This document shows positions 14,790-22,127 of a stretch of 64,000 bases of DNA, in pieces. Where the stretch lies: NCBI RefSeq assembly GCF_001645685.2, contig NZ_CP017080.1, positions 3,959,051 to 4,023,050 of the forward strand. Direction: 5' to 3'. The notes below the pieces were generated by a model. It made no database searches. It saw only the letters and a list, made by a program, of their open reading frames with translations, and was not told the origin of the DNA. The position numbers and the translations under genes are program-made. This DNA is from Peribacillus muralis (GTDB lineage Bacteria; Bacillota; Bacilli; Bacillales; DSM-1321). How positions within the stretch are numbered: the stretch's first letter is position 1; each line of letters begins with the position of its first letter.

Positions 14790-16583
14790 TCAGGCTGATT
14801 GTTTCAGTAGTTCGGCTTGCGGAATTTTCCAAAGCTCGCGCCACTTTTTCAATGCCGTAATGAGAATGATCAAGCCGAGACATAACATGGTTATCGACAA
14901 TACTCCATTCAGGATGCTGAATCCTGCAGCATCCGGGTTGAGATAGACGTTTTTGACCATCCAGTATCCTGCTACATTTACCGTTACATATAGGTAGGCG
15001 AGAGGTACGAGGCATGTCCACATATACCAGCGCTTGTCGGCGATTTTCAAGACGACGGTCGCTCCGATGATGAGACCGATCGATGCCATGAGCTGGTTGG
15101 ATACGCCAAAGAGTGCCCAGATCGAGCCGATGTCCCCGGAATAGAGGAGATAGCCCCAGATGAAGCAGGCTAATGCACTGGCGAAGATGTTGCCGGGCAG
15201 CCAATCGACTCGCTTCAATGGTTTATAAAACTCGCCGAAGAAGTCCTGAATCAAGTAGCGGGCCACACGTGTCCCCGAGTCGATAGCGGTTAATATGAAT
15301 ACCGCCTCGAACATGATGACGAATTGAAAGAAGAACGAAGCCAATTTTTCAAAGAAGGGAATTTCCGTAAAGATATAGGTCATCCCGACTGCAAGGGTTA
15401 CCGCCCCGCCCGTCCGTCCTTCAAGGTCCATGCCGATTTCTTCACTGAGCTCATCCAGGTGCACTTTTTCCATGCCTAATGTTTGAAAGACTTCAGGTGA
15501 AGAGTTAATCGCAAAATAATCACCTGGCTGCAGTGAAACTGCCGCAATCAATGCCATGATGGCAACGACACACTCGACAAGCATCGCTCCGAAACCGACG
15601 GATTTGATATCACTCCAGCGGTTTAACATTTTGGGCGTCGTGCCGGAGCCGACGAATGCATGGAAGCCTGAAATCGCCCCACAGGCAATCGTTATCGAAA
15701 TGAATGGCCACACAGGACCGGCGACAATTGGGCCTCCGCCATTGACGAATTCGGTGAATGCTGGAAATTGAATGTCTGGATTCACCACGAATACACCGAT
15801 AATCAATGCGGCAAACACACCGATTTTCATGAATGTGCTTAAGTAATCACGTGGTGCCAGCAGCAGCCATACCGGCAATGCCGCTGCGAAGAAGGCATAA
15901 ATTGGCAAAATAAGGGCAAGCGTACTTGCTTCAAGTGTCAATAGTTCACCAAGGGCCGTTCCTTGGATGTTCGGACCAAGCAAGATTCCAGCCATGATGA
16001 GTGTGAATCCGACAATGGTCGCTCCTTTTAAATTGCCTGTTTTTTTATGGTATAGGCCCACTCCCATGGCGATGGGAATCGTGATCCCGACAGCAAACGT
16101 TCCCCATGGATTATTTTCCAAGGCATGCAGGACGACCATAGAAAGTCCTGCCATCGTAATCGTAATGATAAAAAGCATCGCAAGTCCTGTACAGAAGCCT
16201 GCGACCGGGCCAAGTTCTTCCTTGGCAACTTCAGATAGCGATTTTCCTTCTTTACGCATCGATGCGAAAAGCACGACAGCATCATGAACCGCTCCGCCGA
16301 TGACAGCTCCGATCAATAGCCATAACAAACTTGGCAAATAACCAAATTGTGCAGCAAGGATCGGACCGACAAGCGGACCTGCCGCTGCGATGGCGGCAAA
16401 ATGGTGGCCGAATGCCACCCATTTATTAGTTGGAACATAATCTTTTCCATCTTCCAATGCATGAGCCGGTGTCGGCTTGGAGTCGTCCAGCTTTAATACT
16501 TTCCTTGCTATGAATGTCCCGTATAAACGGTAGGCGATCATTAATATACAAATCGACCCTATGACGATTGAAACCGCATTCAT
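14790..16583 (-). CDS. cstA: carbon starvation protein CstA family transporter
   Basis: About 597 residues, the standard CstA length, with some 16 membrane segments. Typical motifs are the N-terminal VPTNKWVAFGHHFAAIAAAGPLVGP, HAFVGSGTTPKMLNRW and TAIDSGTRVARYLIQD. CstA/BtsT proteins import peptides or pyruvate in starved cells. ATG at 16583 is chosen over the frame opening at 16628 because it follows AGAGGGGGATTCAAA. It lies directly downstream of a LytS/LytT-type system, the arrangement known for pyruvate-sensing BtsSR-BtsT and LytST-type loci. Direct repeats and a cre-like box lie in the 140-bp gap. Confidence 0.93.
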   Translation of the reverse strand: MNAVSIVIGSICILMIAYRLYGTFIARKVLKLDDSKPTPAHALEDGKDYVPTNKWVAFGHHFAAIAAAGPLVGPILAAQFGYLPSLLWLLIGAVIGGAVHDAVVLFASMRKEGKSLSEVAKEELGPVAGFCTGLAMLFIITITMAGLSMVVLHALENNPWGTFAVGITIPIAMGVGLYHKKTGNLKGATIVGFTLIMAGILLGPNIQGTALGELLTLEASTLALILPIYAFFAAALPVWLLLAPRDYLSTFMKIGVFAALIIGVFVVNPDIQFPAFTEFVNGGGPIVAGPVWPFISITIACGAISGFHAFVGSGTTPKMLNRWSDIKSVGFGAMLVECVVAIMALIAAVSLQPGDYFAINSSPEVFQTLGMEKVHLDELSEEIGMDLEGRTGGAVTLAVGMTYIFTEIPFFEKLASFFFQFVIMFEAVFILTAIDSGTRVARYLIQDFFGEFYKPLKRVDWLPGNIFASALACFIWGYLLYSGDIGSIWALFGVSNQLMASIGLIIGATVVLKIADKRWYMWTCLVPLAYLYVTVNVAGYWMVKNVYLNPDAAGFSILNGVLSITMLCLGLIILITALKKWRELWKIPQAELLKQSA

Positions 16584-16641
16584 TTTGAATCCCCCTCTAC
16601 TTCTTCCATCGTAAACTGATGATATCACGATGAAAGCGGAT

Positions 16642-16655
16642 GCAAAGCGTTTTCA
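16642..16655. promoter_or_regulatory. cre-like CcpA box upstream of cstA
   Basis: GCAAAGCGTTTTCA matches 12 of 14 positions of the catabolite-responsive consensus TGWAANCGNTNWCA. CstA-type genes are classical glucose-repressed genes, so CcpA control is plausible. Confidence 0.4.
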
Positions 16656-16713
16656 AGCTACAATGCAGATAATGAGGGCTGGATTGCAATATAAAGAAGC
16701 TAAAATGCAGAAT
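16655..16713. promoter_or_regulatory. direct repeats, candidate LytT operator for cstA
   Basis: AAGCTACAATGCAGAT (16655-16670) and AAGCTAAAATGCAGAA (16697-16712) are direct repeats starting 42 bp apart (four helical turns, 2 x 21), between lytT and cstA. LytTR-domain regulators bind same-face direct repeats, so this is the best candidate site. Confidence 0.6.
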
Positions 16714-16723
16714 TATGAAAATT

Positions 16724-17476
16724 TTAAAAACCAATAAGCTGCTTTAGCTCCTTTACATAGGTGCGGCTCACGGGTATGTTCGATCCATCGCTCATGATGA
16801 GGTTATACGTCGAATTGAACCAAGGCTGGATTTCAGCTATATGGGTGATATTGACGATAAACCCGCGATGCACCCGTAAAAACAAGCGTTGGTCAAGCTT
16901 TCTTTCAAACACGATGAGCGGGTCGCCCATTTTATATTCAGTTTCTTCCGTTTTGATGAACGTCTTTCCATCGATGAGGCCGATGAATAATATTGAATCA
17001 CGGTCGATCAAAACGATCCGGTCATCGATTTCCACAGCCAGTTTCCCTGTCTGCCCCACCGCCGTACGAAGCGGCGGCTTTGTACTTGTTTCAAGCTCCC
17101 CTGCTTTACGCACTTTGACGAGCTTTTCCAAGGTTTTCCGTATCCGCTTTTCATCAAAGGGCTTCAATAGGTAATCAAATGCATACGATTCAAAGGCCTG
17201 AAGGGCAAACTCGTCATAAGCCGTGGCAAAAATGAGTGTTGGGGCCGGCTCAAGCTCTGCCAATTGTTTGGCCAATTGTAAGCCATTGCCGTCTGCCAGC
17301 TCAATATCCAAGAAGACAAGATCTGGCTTCAAGCCTGGAATATTGTTCATGGCCCCTTCTATCCCTTCCGCCTCGCCCACGACTTCAACTTGCCTGCTCC
17401 TTTTCAGGAGGTATTTCAATTCATCCCTTGCCAGTGGTTCATCTTCTACGATAAATGCTTTCAACATCGCTGACAT
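16724..17476 (-). CDS. LytTR-family response regulator
   Basis: 250 residues. The receiver domain has acidic EDEPLAR, a phospho-acceptor Asp in LVFLDIEL near residue 57, and Lys in YLLKPFDEKR near 108. The C-terminal LytTR DNA-binding domain (about 150-250) has LRVHRGFIVNI and ISRTYVK-like ends. The gene overlaps lytS by 38 bp. GGAG lies 3 nt before ATG 17476 and 12 nt before ATG 17467, so the start is ambiguous. Probable activator of cstA. Confidence 0.93.
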   Translation of the reverse strand: MSAMLKAFIVEDEPLARDELKYLLKRSRQVEVVGEAEGIEGAMNNIPGLKPDLVFLDIELADGNGLQLAKQLAELEPAPTLIFATAYDEFALQAFESYAFDYLLKPFDEKRIRKTLEKLVKVRKAGELETSTKPPLRTAVGQTGKLAVEIDDRIVLIDRDSILFIGLIDGKTFIKTEETEYKMGDPLIVFERKLDQRLFLRVHRGFIVNITHIAEIQPWFNSTYNLIMSDGSNIPVSRTYVKELKQLIGF

Positions 17477-19232
17477 ATGCTCCTTTTTCGTTGAGTGGTA
17501 TCGATATTCTCACTTGCGTTCCGTGCCCCGTTTCACTTTTTATCGAGAAATTTGCCTGACCTTTATAGATTCCTTCCAGCCGTTCACTGATATTATAAAG
17601 GGCCGTTCCTGTACCTTTAATCGAATCTACAGCACGCTTTCCTAATTCAACTAATTTCTCCCCTGCCATTCCTTTTCCGTTATCTTCCACAACAATGTGC
17701 ATCGCATCGTCTTTAACATATGCTTGGATAACGATTTCCCCTTTGTTTTTCATATGTGGAAAGGCATGGTGTATCGCATTTTCAACGAGCGGCTGCAGCG
17801 TGAATGGAGGTATCGGAACCTCTTTAAGACTTGGTTCAATGTTATGAACGATATGATATTTATCCGGAAATCGGGCTTGCTCCAGCGATAAATAAGCTTG
17901 GACATGCTCCAATTCCTTTTCAAGCGGCACCAATATTTGCCTGGCTCCTTGCAGGTTGCTGCGAAAGAAGGCACTCAGCTCCATTAACAGGCTTCTTGCC
18001 TTTTCCACATCCGTACGGCATAGAACGGAAATCGTATTGATTGCATTGAACAGGAAATGCGGATGGACTTGTGCCTGCAGGGCCTTGATTTCAGCATCTT
18101 TCAATAAATCGGTTTGCATTTCCGCCTTGGCTAGCTCCAGTTGGGTGGAGAAAAGCTTCGCCAGCCCTTCAGCCAGCTCCTGTTCCACTTGGCTTAATTT
18201 ATCAGGATGCTTGAAGTACATCTTCAACGTCCCGACCGTTTTCCGTTGGACTTGAAGGGGCAGCACGACCGCTGCTTGCAAAGGACATTGATCATGAAAG
18301 CAATAAATGTCCTTTCTTGTTTTGGCGACGATGATGTTGCCTTGTTCGAGGGCCTTTTTCGTTAAGCCCGTCGCGATGCCTTCCCTTGGAACATGATGAT
18401 CGGACGCTGCCCCCACATGAGCAAGTACGCTATGCTCATTCGTTATGGCCACCGCATCGGCTTCCGTCAGCCCAAGGATTATTTCGGCAATTTTCTTACA
18501 AGAGGCTTGATTCAGGCCCTGGCGGAAATAAGGCAAGGTTTGATCCGCAATCAGGAATGCCAAATTCGTCTGCACGGCCCGCGTCCGTGCCTCATCCCTC
18601 GTAATCGATTGAATGATGAGCATGAATAATAACGTGCCAAAGCCGTTGATGAAAATCATCGGGAGGCCGATTACCTGGACGAGCTCCCACGCCCGTTCAA
18701 ATGGCTTGGCCGTTGCCAGGATGATGACCATTTGGATCGCTTCCAGGGCCATGCAAATCGGGAGGGCAAACCAAGGCGTGATCAGCCCATGCTTTTGCCG
18801 CCTTTTTCCTAAAAACCCCGATAAGACGCCAGCCAAAATCGCCGCGACGGCACAAGCCCCTGCTGTAAAACCGCCGAGAGTGTAGCGATGCAGCCCTGCA
18901 ATCAAACCGACCCCCAAACCGACGAATGGCCCCCCAAGCAGGCCGCCGATGGCGACACCCATGATCCTTGTGTTGGCAATCGCATTATCGGGAGCGATTT
19001 CGGCATGCCAATTCCCTAGCGGCATCTCATGATTCCCGATTTCGATCCCGGTATAATTACTAATGATGCCGAATATTCCAAAAAGGATGATGAGCATGAT
19101 CTTCTTTGACATTTGATGCTCATGACCGATCATTTGCCGAAACGGCTTCATATAAGAAAGCAGGAACGCCGCAATCACGATGATCCCGACCTTTTCAAAC
19201 AGCGACGGTAATAAATGAACCAACTCATTCAC
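17439..19232 (-). CDS. LytS-type sensor histidine kinase
   Basis: 597 residues. N-terminal 5TM-5TMR_LYT membrane sensor (about 10-195), a GAF domain (about 215-345), then a His_kinase domain with the phospho-His in QVHPHFLFNAINTI (near 385) and an HATPase with ENAIHHAF and GTGTALYNISERL. This family senses pyruvate or related metabolites (BtsS, YpdA) or envelope state (LytS). The neighbourhood with cstA favours the metabolite role. Confidence 0.93.
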   Translation of the reverse strand: MNELVHLLPSLFEKVGIIVIAAFLLSYMKPFRQMIGHEHQMSKKIMLIILFGIFGIISNYTGIEIGNHEMPLGNWHAEIAPDNAIANTRIMGVAIGGLLGGPFVGLGVGLIAGLHRYTLGGFTAGACAVAAILAGVLSGFLGKRRQKHGLITPWFALPICMALEAIQMVIILATAKPFERAWELVQVIGLPMIFINGFGTLLFMLIIQSITRDEARTRAVQTNLAFLIADQTLPYFRQGLNQASCKKIAEIILGLTEADAVAITNEHSVLAHVGAASDHHVPREGIATGLTKKALEQGNIIVAKTRKDIYCFHDQCPLQAAVVLPLQVQRKTVGTLKMYFKHPDKLSQVEQELAEGLAKLFSTQLELAKAEMQTDLLKDAEIKALQAQVHPHFLFNAINTISVLCRTDVEKARSLLMELSAFFRSNLQGARQILVPLEKELEHVQAYLSLEQARFPDKYHIVHNIEPSLKEVPIPPFTLQPLVENAIHHAFPHMKNKGEIVIQAYVKDDAMHIVVEDNGKGMAGEKLVELGKRAVDSIKGTGTALYNISERLEGIYKGQANFSIKSETGHGTQVRISIPLNEKGAYVSDVESIYRRR

Positions 19233-19776: not shown

Positions 19777-21681
19777 TTATTCGTTTAGCTTCTTCCGCAT
19801 ATCCGCCGCGACATTCCTTAATGCCTTCTTCGATCCCCGCTCCAGGTCATGGTTCAGCTTCCTTTCTTCGTAGCTGACGAATAGGGAGTTCAGATCATAG
19901 CCTTCCGGATATAAGTCGATGGCTTTTATTTCAAGCTCCAGCCTATTGGCATGAACTTCCTTGAAGGAATCTTCGAAAAGGACGACGACATTATTAAAGG
20001 AATTCTTCTTTTTATAGACGATCGCATATCCGTCAAGTCCGCTTACCTTCACCTTGTCACCGACTGCAAATTCAGGCAAGGCTTTTTTTGGAGGAAGCTC
20101 TGCTTTCGTTTTTTTGATTTTCCCTTCCTGGACACGTTCCAAGTCATAGTCTTTATTGTTTATATAGTGTTTTGCCTTTTGCAACACCTGCTGGCGTACG
20201 TCCATTTTTTTCGCGATCCACAGGGCATTGCTTTCGCCGGATTGGCCGATCAGCAGCTTATACCTCGGCTCCAATGTTTCACTGTTAAATTGCATCGCCG
20301 CATTCATGAAGTCGCTGTGAATTTCGGAATAGCGTTTGATTTCACCGTAATGGGTCGTGGCAACGGTGATGCATCCCTTTTGATAAAATTCCTCCAGGAT
20401 CGCGATCGCTAAAGCGGCGCCTTCATTCGGTTCCGTTCCGCTGCCGATTTCATCGAACAGCAGCAGCGAGTTGTTGGTTACAGCGAGCAGGATTTCCGAA
20501 ATGTTTTTCATATGCGACGAAAACGTACTCAGCGCATTTTCCAGGCTTTGATTATCGCCAATGTCGACAAATACGTGATCGAAGACGGCCAGCTCCGTCC
20601 CCTCTTTGCCGGCAATATGAAGCCCAGACATCGCGGCCAGCGTAAGGATGCCGATCGTTTTCAGGACGACCGTCTTTCCTCCGGCGTTTGGTCCCGTGAT
20701 GATCAAGCTGCGATAATCCTGGCCGATTTCGAAATCCAATGGTACACTGTCTGCGGGCAAAAGCGGATGCTTGCAGCCGGCTAATCGGATATACCCATGA
20801 TCATTGATTTTCGGTTCGATTCCGTCCATGCTTTTACTGAATTTGGCTTTTGCGAAGATCATGTCATACTGGCTGATGAGTTCGACATTGATTTTGATCG
20901 GCTTTAGCTGTTCGAAAACCATGCCTGATAACGTCGCCAATAGCTGATACTCCTCCATCGCTTCCTCCGCTTTGAAGCTGGCCAGTTCTGCATTCAATTT
21001 CGTTACGGCGGCAGGCTCGATGAACACGGTGGCACCCTTTGCGGATACCTCCACGATCGTTCCGGCCACCTGGTTTTTATAAGAGGATTTGATTGGTATG
21101 GTATAGCGATCATCTTTTTTGCTGATGAAGAATTCCTGAATGAACGCTTTATTGGTACCGCTCTTCAAGAACTTATTCAAACGCTCCTCGATTTTACCTT
21201 CCGTTTTGCCGATTTGGTTCCGAATCCGCTTCAACTCCCTGCTGGCTTCCGAAGCAACGGCATTTCCTTTTATTGTGAATTGGATTTCCTCCTCCAAGGT
21301 CCTGAGTTCTGTCATCGAATGCGCGTAAGAGTGCAATGTTGGAGCAAAAAACGCTTTATCGGTCATGAATGTCTTGATATTCCGGCAGCCCCTTAAGAAG
21401 TCGGCGATCGCCACAAGCTCACTTGGCTCCAAGATCATTCCCTTTTCGAGCTTTTCGATATGGAAGCCAATATGGGAGATGCCCTTCAAGGGAATATGGC
21501 TTTCCGCATTCAATAAATCCCTTGCTTCCGTCGTCTCGTTCAAACGGTTCTTGACCACATTCAATATGCCGCTTGGCTGCAGCCGATCCAATAATTCCTT
21601 CCCTAAGCCGCTTACACAATGGCTTTTCACCATGTCCTTCAGTTGGATATATTGTAGTTTTTCATAAGTCATCGTATTCAT
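19777..21681 (-). CDS. MutS2-family ATPase lacking the Smr domain
   Basis: 634 residues. It has the MutS2-type core and clamp helices (1-300), the Walker A ITGPNAGGKT near residue 330, Walker B LLLFDEIGSGTEP near 410, and a KOW-like module around FAVGDKVKVSGLDGYA (about 545-590). The chain ends there, whereas standard MutS2 (~785 residues) continues into an Smr nuclease domain. MutS2 binds collided ribosomes and DNA junctions. This paralogue keeps the ATPase and the ribosome-associated KOW part only. GGAGGATCATGCT precedes the ATG. A ~410-nt leader with uORF and two terminators lies upstream. Confidence 0.9.
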   Translation of the reverse strand: MNTMTYEKLQYIQLKDMVKSHCVSGLGKELLDRLQPSGILNVVKNRLNETTEARDLLNAESHIPLKGISHIGFHIEKLEKGMILEPSELVAIADFLRGCRNIKTFMTDKAFFAPTLHSYAHSMTELRTLEEEIQFTIKGNAVASEASRELKRIRNQIGKTEGKIEERLNKFLKSGTNKAFIQEFFISKKDDRYTIPIKSSYKNQVAGTIVEVSAKGATVFIEPAAVTKLNAELASFKAEEAMEEYQLLATLSGMVFEQLKPIKINVELISQYDMIFAKAKFSKSMDGIEPKINDHGYIRLAGCKHPLLPADSVPLDFEIGQDYRSLIITGPNAGGKTVVLKTIGILTLAAMSGLHIAGKEGTELAVFDHVFVDIGDNQSLENALSTFSSHMKNISEILLAVTNNSLLLFDEIGSGTEPNEGAALAIAILEEFYQKGCITVATTHYGEIKRYSEIHSDFMNAAMQFNSETLEPRYKLLIGQSGESNALWIAKKMDVRQQVLQKAKHYINNKDYDLERVQEGKIKKTKAELPPKKALPEFAVGDKVKVSGLDGYAIVYKKKNSFNNVVVLFEDSFKEVHANRLELEIKAIDLYPEGYDLNSLFVSYEERKLNHDLERGSKKALRNVAADMRKKLNE

Positions 21682-21728
21682 AGCATGATCCTCCTTGAAT
21701 GAGTGTGTGTGATTCTCTCCTTAAATCC

Positions 21729-21801
21729 AAAAAAATGCCCGCAAAAGTCCCCCTACCTTTACAAATGAACAAGCCATTTGAGTAGAAAGCTCCTGCGGGC
21801 A
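21729..21801 (-). terminator. distal intrinsic terminator inside the leader
   Basis: TGCCCGCA (21801-21794) pairs with TGCGGGCA (21743-21736), followed by seven T (21735-21729). The large loop holds a smaller CAAATG/CATTTG hairpin. It lies only ~50 nt before the mutS2-like start codon, so it must be bypassed for expression. Confidence 0.8.
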
Positions 21802-21864
21802 CGGCCTTATAAAGACCTAAAATCGAAAACAAAATAGGCAGGTCAAAGAAACCTGATAGACAAC

Positions 21865-21896
21865 AAAAAAGCATGATAGGACAAACCCCACCATAC
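21865..21896 (-). terminator. proximal intrinsic terminator inside the leader
   Basis: GTATGGTGGGG (21896-21886) pairs with TCCTATCATGC (21881-21871) using G-U wobbles, loop of four, then six T. It is the first of two stop points in the leader. Confidence 0.72.
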
Positions 21897-22042
21897 TTTT
21901 TCGCCGTAACACCTACATGTTACACGAATTATGGAAAAGGAAGCAGTCTTAAGGTAGGTATCCACAATGCAGGAATGCACCGTGAAAAAAGGCAAACTTA
22001 ATCCACTGACTGATCAGTGACTAAATACCTTATTCAACTAAA

Positions 22043-22066
22043 TTAGTTGATACCTACTCCCGACAT
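22043..22066 (-). CDS. leader peptide uORF of seven codons
   Basis: ATG at 22066 encodes MSGVGIN and then TAA. AAAAGGTG lies 9 nt upstream. Codons 4-6 (GTA GGT ATC) are exactly the 5' strand of helix P1, so a ribosome on this uORF would prevent P1 from forming. This is the layout of ribosome-stalling attenuators of antibiotic-response genes. Assigned from layout only. Confidence 0.6.
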   Translation of the reverse strand: MSGVGIN

Positions 22067-22098
22067 AAAACACCACACCTTTTCTTAGAATTGGAATT

Positions 22099-22127
22099 AA
22101 TATACCATATGAGCAAGAAAGAGTCAA
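22099..22127 (-). promoter_or_regulatory. promoter of the mutS2-like leader
   Basis: TTGACT (22127-22122), 17-bp spacer, TATATT (22104-22099) on the minus strand. Predicted start near 22092, about 26 nt before the uORF ATG. Confidence 0.68.

Follow-up and report, generated by a model that had tools for sequence, protein, structure and literature searches.

Among the closest known systems is the 219-nt vmlR leader of Bacillus subtilis, which, according to the accessible part of PMC9226507, holds a uORF encoding MIN and follows a scheme of anti-antiterminator, antiterminator, and terminator. Another is the attenuator of hflXr (lmo0762) in Listeria, with rli80, for which the available sections of PMC6310831 give a 14-codon uORF with an RLR motif. 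The uORFC-6-1 motif located before hflX in Bacillales was found by comparison (PMC8632094); in the main text of that article, as far as available, the term "mutS" does not occur. As for the protein concerned here, the accessible sections of PMC10897456 describe how the KOW and SMR domains bring MutS2 of B. subtilis to collided ribosomes, which it splits by means of its ATPase.

We analysed a stretch of 64,000 nucleotides from Peribacillus muralis (hereafter, the window), in which a leader on the minus strand (22127-21682) lies 5' of the gene for a 634-aa MutS2 paralogue. A sequence-only reading had described a promoter, a Shine-Dalgarno site, and a seven-codon uORF whose codons 4 to 6 are the 5' strand of a 9-bp helix, with two terminators before the mutS2-like start, and all of these elements were found in the sequence. 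In the following list, A2 is the 17-sequence alignment of leaders of the window's own class, and its helices are those of R2, the structure model built on it.

22099..22127, minus strand: sigma-A-type promoter, TTGACT-17-TATATT, matching at 10 of 12 positions and with TG in front of the -10
22076..22083, minus strand: Shine-Dalgarno site of the uORF, AAAAGGTG, read from the sequence
22043..22066, minus strand: uORF MSGVGIN, seven codons and stop (ATG TCG GGA GTA GGT ATC AAC TAA), from sequence and comparison
22049..22057, minus strand: 5' strand of helix P1, GTAGGTATC (putative anti-antiterminator), uORF codons 4 to 6, from fold and comparison
22035..22049, minus strand: hairpin spanning codon 7 and the stop codon of the uORF, CAACTAATTTAGTTG, A2 helices 3 and 4
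21989..22032, minus strand: hairpin P2, AAGG...GCCTT with an inner stem, A2 helices 5 and 6
21961..21986, minus strand: hairpin P3, TTCACGGTGCA...TGCATTGTGGA, A2 helix 7
21954..21962, minus strand: 3' strand of P1, GATACCTAC, forming the 9-bp helix with GTAGGTATC, from the window fold
21950..21962, minus strand: predicted switch strand M, GATACCTACCTTA, with the uORF or M' as partner, from fold, alignment, and stall model
21930..21950, minus strand: stretch AAGACTGCTTCCTTTTCCATA, highly conserved in the window-class alignment and mostly outside predicted helices
about 21864..21901, minus strand: intrinsic terminator T1, from fold, alignment, and stall model
21729..21801, minus strand: intrinsic terminator T2, TGCCCGC...GCGGGCATTTTTTT, ending ca. 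48 nt 5' of the mutS2-like ATG at 21681, from fold and alignment
21752..21759, minus strand: M', AAGGTAGG, inside T2, resembling GTAGG of the uORF and able to pair with M, from pairing count and stall model
21690..21696, minus strand: Shine-Dalgarno site of the mutS2-like gene, read from the sequence
19777..21681, minus strand: SMR-less MutS2 paralogue, 634 aa, from TIGR01069, PF00488, and structure model

The fold of the window leader had a z score of -8.9 against shuffled sequences, none of 100 being as good. Within its class, the 24 aligned leaders retain TTGAC in the -35 element, and AAAGGTGTGG, in the Shine-Dalgarno region of the uORF, is nearly invariant in A2.

As in the vmlR leader (accessible part of PMC9226507), the uORF lies inside a putative anti-antiterminator helix, accompanied by a predicted antiterminator, an intrinsic terminator, and a candidate Shine-Dalgarno hairpin, and the target would likewise be an ATPase at work on the ribosome. 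However, the vmlR peptide is a loosely conserved tripeptide, whereas the uORFs described here mostly have seven to eight codons with conserved residues, lie up to 574 nt before a gene of MutS2 type, and are accompanied by two terminators or by crossing long-range helices. The closest functional parallel is hflXr (PMC6310831, available sections), in which a drug-protective homologue of a ribosome-splitting factor is under attenuator control, but there the uORF has 14 codons with RLR and the protein is an HflX, while here seven codons without RLR precede a MutS2 ATPase. With uORFC-6-1 (PMC8632094, available text) our leader shares a comparative uORF motif before a ribosome-rescue gene in Bacillales, although the gene is a different one. 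By these analogies, it is best called a leader that would work like those of vmlR and hflXr, the new element being the target family.

The 634-aa protein matched TIGR01069 with 591 bits, above the cut-off, although the match extends only to position 524 of the 790 in the model, and PF00488 was also above its cut-off. The proposal of a uORF-coupled terminator attenuator before an SMR-less MutS2 paralogue was supported. No match to the Pfam SMR domain appeared in the window protein or in any of 26 family members from the first three leader classes described below; MutS_V was matched in all 26, and the Walker A and B motifs (GPNxGGKT and DE) are invariant in these sequences, as are the C-terminal residues L590, Y591, Y595, R607, and K608. 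Outside the 26, the absence of SMR is read from protein length (535 to 641 aa in 80 orthologues, two of which, L106 and L110, fall below 600 aa, and 358 to 694 residues, from start to stop of the match, in 30 class-wide proteins). The window's genome also encodes a full-length MutS2 (791-aa open frame, 39% identity) and has a third, weaker match to the MutS family (29% identity). In two annotated records, members of the mutS2-like family are labelled endonuclease MutS2 or mismatch-repair protein. Some matches are split or hold a stop (G024:C2:28802-30701, G052:C5:245130-247017, and G042:C98:20013-21896), so some strains may carry a disrupted copy. Elsewhere in the window (14790-19232, minus strand), a CstA transporter lies beside a LytTR response regulator and a 5TMR-LYT histidine kinase.

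The structure model of the window protein (mean pLDDT 83.9) had MutS2 structures as its best structural matches. In profile comparisons, residues 1-582 aligned to 1-682 of 7qv3 (785 residues), but 1-565 to 1-601 of 8qpp. In the model, residues 543-585 contain five strands, possibly a KOW-like region, and a Pfam KOW match was absent from the window protein and the 26 members. The family is like B. subtilis MutS2 (7qv3; PMC10897456, accessible sections) in its ATPase core and possibly in a KOW-like region, but unlike it in being a paralogue without SMR and ca. 150 residues shorter. The SMR-less form would need another way to the ribosome.

To follow the leader across relatives, we used 80 orthologous loci from named genomes (the top 80 among 115 relatives detected), which, going by genus names, we take to belong to Bacillaceae, Planococcaceae, Paenibacillaceae, Staphylococcaceae, and Aerococcaceae, together with a Turicibacter MAG. 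All 80 have an assignable short uORF: 69 had seven codons and 7 had eight, and the shorter or shifted ones had six (3 loci) or five (1 locus); the five-codon case, L101, is probably a three-codon remnant, as in L168. The uORFs fell into classes. The window class encodes MSGVGIN, MSVVGIN, MSEVGMN, or close variants, with seven codons and valine at codon 4 in 35/35 rows, whereas the second class (MSAVGSK, MSAVVSK, and relatives) starts with GTG, ATG, or TTG and keeps the valine in 58/64 rows, some loci being counted twice. Serine occupies codon 2 throughout the 99 rows for the two classes together (again with some loci counted twice), written as TCN (TCG, TCA, or TCT) in 35/35 rows of the window class and as AGT or AGC in 63/64 rows of the second. 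Six different serine codons, three alternative start codons (ATG, GTG, and TTG), and eight-codon variants that stay in frame are signs of coding across the classes. The leader thus holds a short ORF with start, Shine-Dalgarno site, and stop that is conserved as coding. None of the conserved uORFs assigned in all classes has the RLR motif of macrolide-type leader peptides.

A third class, with uORFs ending in VLN, was found at 19 of 21 MutS2-like loci of 35 to 42% identity; of the two misses, L122 is at a contig edge and L127 has no uORF. Codons 2 to 4 are variable in this class, and GTTCTTAACT of the uORF (codons 5 to 7) pairs with AGTTAAGAAC ca. 100 nt downstream. Variant uORFs have changed partners (MSGSVVLR with GAAGAACAAC, MSAKVVLN with TTCAGAACAAC, and MSGVILN with AGTTAAGAAT). 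A fourth class encodes MSEVVSA or MSGVVSA (five loci), and a clostridial relative, Acetoanaerobium, has MSVIVLL. In a class-wide sample, 30/30 loci had a short uORF and a perfect complement of at least 7 nt downstream (at least 9 nt in 28). Among 20 further MutS2-like loci, 16 passed the scan, and on inspection three of the four misses have a uORF and the fourth a three-codon remnant. The element is nearly palindromic, and antisense uORFs were matched in several loci.

We also applied a fixed rule, requiring an SD-like site, a uORF of seven to eight codons, and a perfect complement of at least 8 nt located 40 to 150 nt downstream. It was passed by 58 of 71 class-wide loci, compared with 14 of the 849 stretches that were taken from the 80 loci as controls. 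None of 20 chosen upstream regions of canonical MutS2 genes passed it, and in lacking the leader these differ from the SMR-less paralogues. Only 22 of the 80 orthologues reach 8 nt under this rule; the helix of the second class is the shorter one. With at least 6 nt, there were 66/80 orthologues versus 99/849 controls and 1/20 canonical MutS2 genes. The sizes and strands of neighbouring ORFs vary between the 23 loci listed, and therefore the leader and the mutS2-like gene seem to move as a unit.

The pairing evidence in the window class is of several kinds. In A2, 96.2% of cells were paired in the R2 helices versus 27 to 46% in slid versions, with the caveat that the structure derives from this very alignment and is thereby favoured over those versions. 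Cells altered on both sides numbered 35, versus 14.0 ± 2.9 in shuffles. They included six at one position of the hairpin CAACTAATTTAGTTG (helices 3 and 4, 98.5 to 100% paired), and changes on both sides were seen at four pairs of P2 (helix 6) and three of P3 (helix 7). P1 formed 7 to 9 of its 9 bp with M in 26/26 leaders, and R2 helix 2 was 100% paired with one compensatory change. It hardly varies within this class (own pairing 211 versus 212.0 in shuffles), so that its support comes from being maintained with different sequences in the other classes. The sequence-only reading had staked its proposal on conservation of the uORF, P1, and the terminators among orthologues, and all three proved to be conserved.

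As the helix competing with P1, that reading had named TAAGGTA with TACCTTA. The window does contain this pairing, yet among 24 window-class leaders only 10, all from the window's genus, have it in full (7/7 pairs), so that it did not stand as a conserved competitor; its AAGG pairs locally with CCTT (at least 4/5 pairs in 24/24 leaders). M (CCTACCTT) makes a better competitor, by pairing with AAGGTAGG in the 3' arm of T2. In the window class, M and M' are paired in 197/208 cells (shuffles, 193.8 ± 1.5, with 52 of 2,000 as high). Because P1 and M:M' share strand M, the uORF helix and the downstream pairing are computed to be mutually exclusive, weakly so in the VLN class. Two other pairings, TGCGG of the uORF with the 3' arm of the terminator and M with T1, were judged by eye not to be conserved.

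For the three main classes, 23/24, 59/59, and 49/49 distinct leaders have at least one intrinsic terminator between uORF and gene, versus 60/380 regions upstream of other ORFs. We modelled a stalled ribosome in 11 leaders, chosen from the 24 of the window class, by folding growing transcripts with the uORF free or covered. When the transcript ended at M', the probability of M:M' was 0.00 with the uORF free versus 0.59 to 0.98 with the uORF covered. T1 was at 1.0 in both states, so that the model does not show the earlier suggested switch between T1 and T2. Once T2 was complete, it won with the uORF free or covered in this equilibrium model without pseudoknots, and thus antitermination at T2 would have to be kinetic.

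Putting together uORF conservation, helices, and terminators, we consider it probable that the leader is a ribosome-stall-responsive attenuator, the stalling being predicted. In the absence of stress, the uORF would be translated fast, P1 would re-form and hold M, and T2 could then form and stop transcription. A ribosome staying on the uORF would cover codons 4 to 6, and M, left free, would pair with M' while the 3' arm of T2 is still incomplete, so that transcription reads through. The most likely trigger would be a ribosome-targeting inhibitor acting in the first codons. By analogy with HflXr among HflX proteins, the MutS2-type ATPase without SMR would probably act on stalled or drug-bound ribosomes.

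The second class has a different architecture. From a plain MAFFT alignment of these leaders, RNAalifold recovered almost nothing, so we read the helices per sequence and then tested them (n = 55, with L099, L108, L112, and L065 dropped, their motifs not being located). Most of the leaders folded (53 and 49 leaders) form two hairpins, one of them long, and a terminator. Strand S1, near the transcript start, paired with S1', after the terminator, in 696/770 cells versus 649 ± 5 in shuffles, and M paired with M', here just before the gene, in 717/770 versus 711 ± 1 (maximum, 716). These two helices cross (for example, in L060:3600-3995), which implies either a pseudoknot over roughly 300 nt or two exclusive states. 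In this class M:M' would free the Shine-Dalgarno site of the gene, and the pairing of that site with the 3' half of M' (338/385 cells versus 337.5 in shuffles) shows nothing beyond conservation. The terminator loop GGTATC was noted as a candidate partner of M. As regards the VLN class, we saw by eye that the final terminator (for example, in L136 and L286) often holds GAAC...GTTCATT, like GTTC of the uORF. The mean longest match to the uORF strand in the last terminator was 6.18 versus 5.71 in shuffles (n = 49), only suggestive of a copy of that strand.

Covariance models linked the classes. R1, built from 54 leaders of the VLN class alone, found the window leader (38 bits, E value of 1.3e-4, window positions 21954-22082) as the sole match in the genome at E ≤ 0.01 under stricter filters, and its 33 matches at E ≤ 1 over 62 sources (653 kb) were all at mutS2-like leaders. 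Of 51 genomes near the window, 18 had a single R2 match each; in the window's own genome, a second target was not found, and the sole site was the window leader. Its matches in the other classes were weak, with three in the 62 sources (best E value, 0.26). We infer that the leader may be ancestral to the SMR-less MutS2 family. Searches of the open-access PMC literature gave no description of the leader or of the peptides MSGVGIN, MSAVGSK, and MSAVVSK. In viral contigs, two pattern matches were to the same stretch, without the surrounding leader. Searches for plasmid DNA similar to four leaders retrieved one Paenibacillus plasmid for two queries and none for the other two. A mutS2-like gene with its uORF leader was seen on the plasmids of L286 (Paenibacillus pHD01, 115 kb) and L287 (Cytobacillus spongiae, 690 kb).

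VLN leaders also precede other genes, and terminators were present in 9/9 leaders of these targets versus 60/380 regions upstream of other ORFs. The leader was found before BpsA-like genes (PF01861, ca. 140 to 154 bits) at 9 of the 12 loci L223 to L234. In the other three BpsA-like cases, L243 stands in an operon behind a mutS2-like gene, with four bases between the genes, L281 has a degenerate leader, and L227 (G287) was left unassigned. BpsA-like genes with a VLN leader or in a mutS2-like operon were noted at L187-L194, L223-L226, L229-L234, L243, and L279. In G216, a mutS2-like gene is followed by a short BpsA-like gene with a stop inside its match. Seven loci with R1 matches were opened, the matches being compared with gene positions by eye; G365 has a second R1 site. 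They yielded an APH-fold kinase (L280:2336-3831; uORF MSAVVLS; R1 E value of 3.8e-11) and a GNAT acetyltransferase (L278:199-1507; uORF MFVVVLN; E value of 1.8e-12); in L282, a weak match (E value of 0.006) came without a conserved uORF. APH and GNAT folds are known from drug-modifying enzymes, and it is possible that this kinase and this acetyltransferase modify a drug. Because VLN leaders precede BpsA-like, kinase, and acetyltransferase genes, the targets would point to a drug-response regulon rather than to a general rescue sensor.

The latter is the alternative that survives best. A homeostatic sensor of rescue capacity would raise the MutS2-like protein upon any lasting stall on the uORF, with no specific drug. 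We think it unlikely, though worth serious consideration, given the drug-enzyme folds among the other targets and the conserved peptide features, which suggest specificity. Its main attraction is that B. subtilis MutS2 splits stalled ribosomes and that its loss leads to poorer growth on chloramphenicol, tetracycline, and erythromycin (PMC10897456, accessible part).

Sensing of polyamines, whose level would make the short peptide stall, seems very improbable. It would suit the nine leaders at BpsA-like loci, the operon shared by mutS2-like and BpsA-like genes in G121, and the lgDDDl stretch kept in L279, the one BpsA-like protein aligned. However, none of the 10 canonical BpsA loci (L213 to L222, the ORF of L216 not being located) carries the leader, the kinase and the acetyltransferase have no evident link to polyamines, and many leader-bearing genomes, including that of the window, gave no PF01861 match. 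There is little more than a slim chance, in turn, that the RNA is a riboswitch-like or protein-binding leader, bound by a metabolite or by the MutS2-like product, with the uORF as an incidental feature. The RNA is indeed very structured, with the conserved stretch AAGACTGCTTCC and, in the second class, crossing long-range helices, but the uORF shows coding signs and overlaps P1 in all classes, and the VLN leader stands before unrelated gene families. Against Rfam 15, including T-box and ribosomal-protein leaders, the window and 12 orthologous loci gave no match at gathering score; two weak matches were far below it. Least probable of all is a response to amino-acid starvation, in which ribosomes lingering at Ser, Val, Gly, or Asn codons of the uORF would report a shortage of charged tRNA: the layout, a uORF followed by terminators, is the classic one and valine 4 is kept in 35/35 and 58/64 rows of the two closer classes, but the targets are not amino-acid genes, no single-codon run matches a target pathway, codons 2 to 4 vary in the VLN class, and neither a T-box nor any other Rfam family reached gathering score.

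We thus prefer the stall-responsive attenuator. More tentatively, and with greater doubt than for the attenuator itself, SMR-less MutS2 proteins might be an inducible class of ribosome-protection or rescue factors ("MutS2r") under one ancient arrest-peptide leader that answers to a single inhibitor and coordinates a regulon. This joint reading would place in the regulon the MutS2-type ATPase, the BpsA-like enzyme of aminopropyltransferase fold (sometimes in one operon with it), the APH-fold kinase, and the GNAT acetyltransferase. The comparison of clades suggests a single attenuator family in which the input, uORF and P1, is kept while the output differs, with terminator invasion in one clade and Shine-Dalgarno release in another. 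If true, a widespread family of MutS2 paralogues would be an inducible translation-stress or resistance factor, and it would belong to a regulon whose inducer a simple reporter screen could find.
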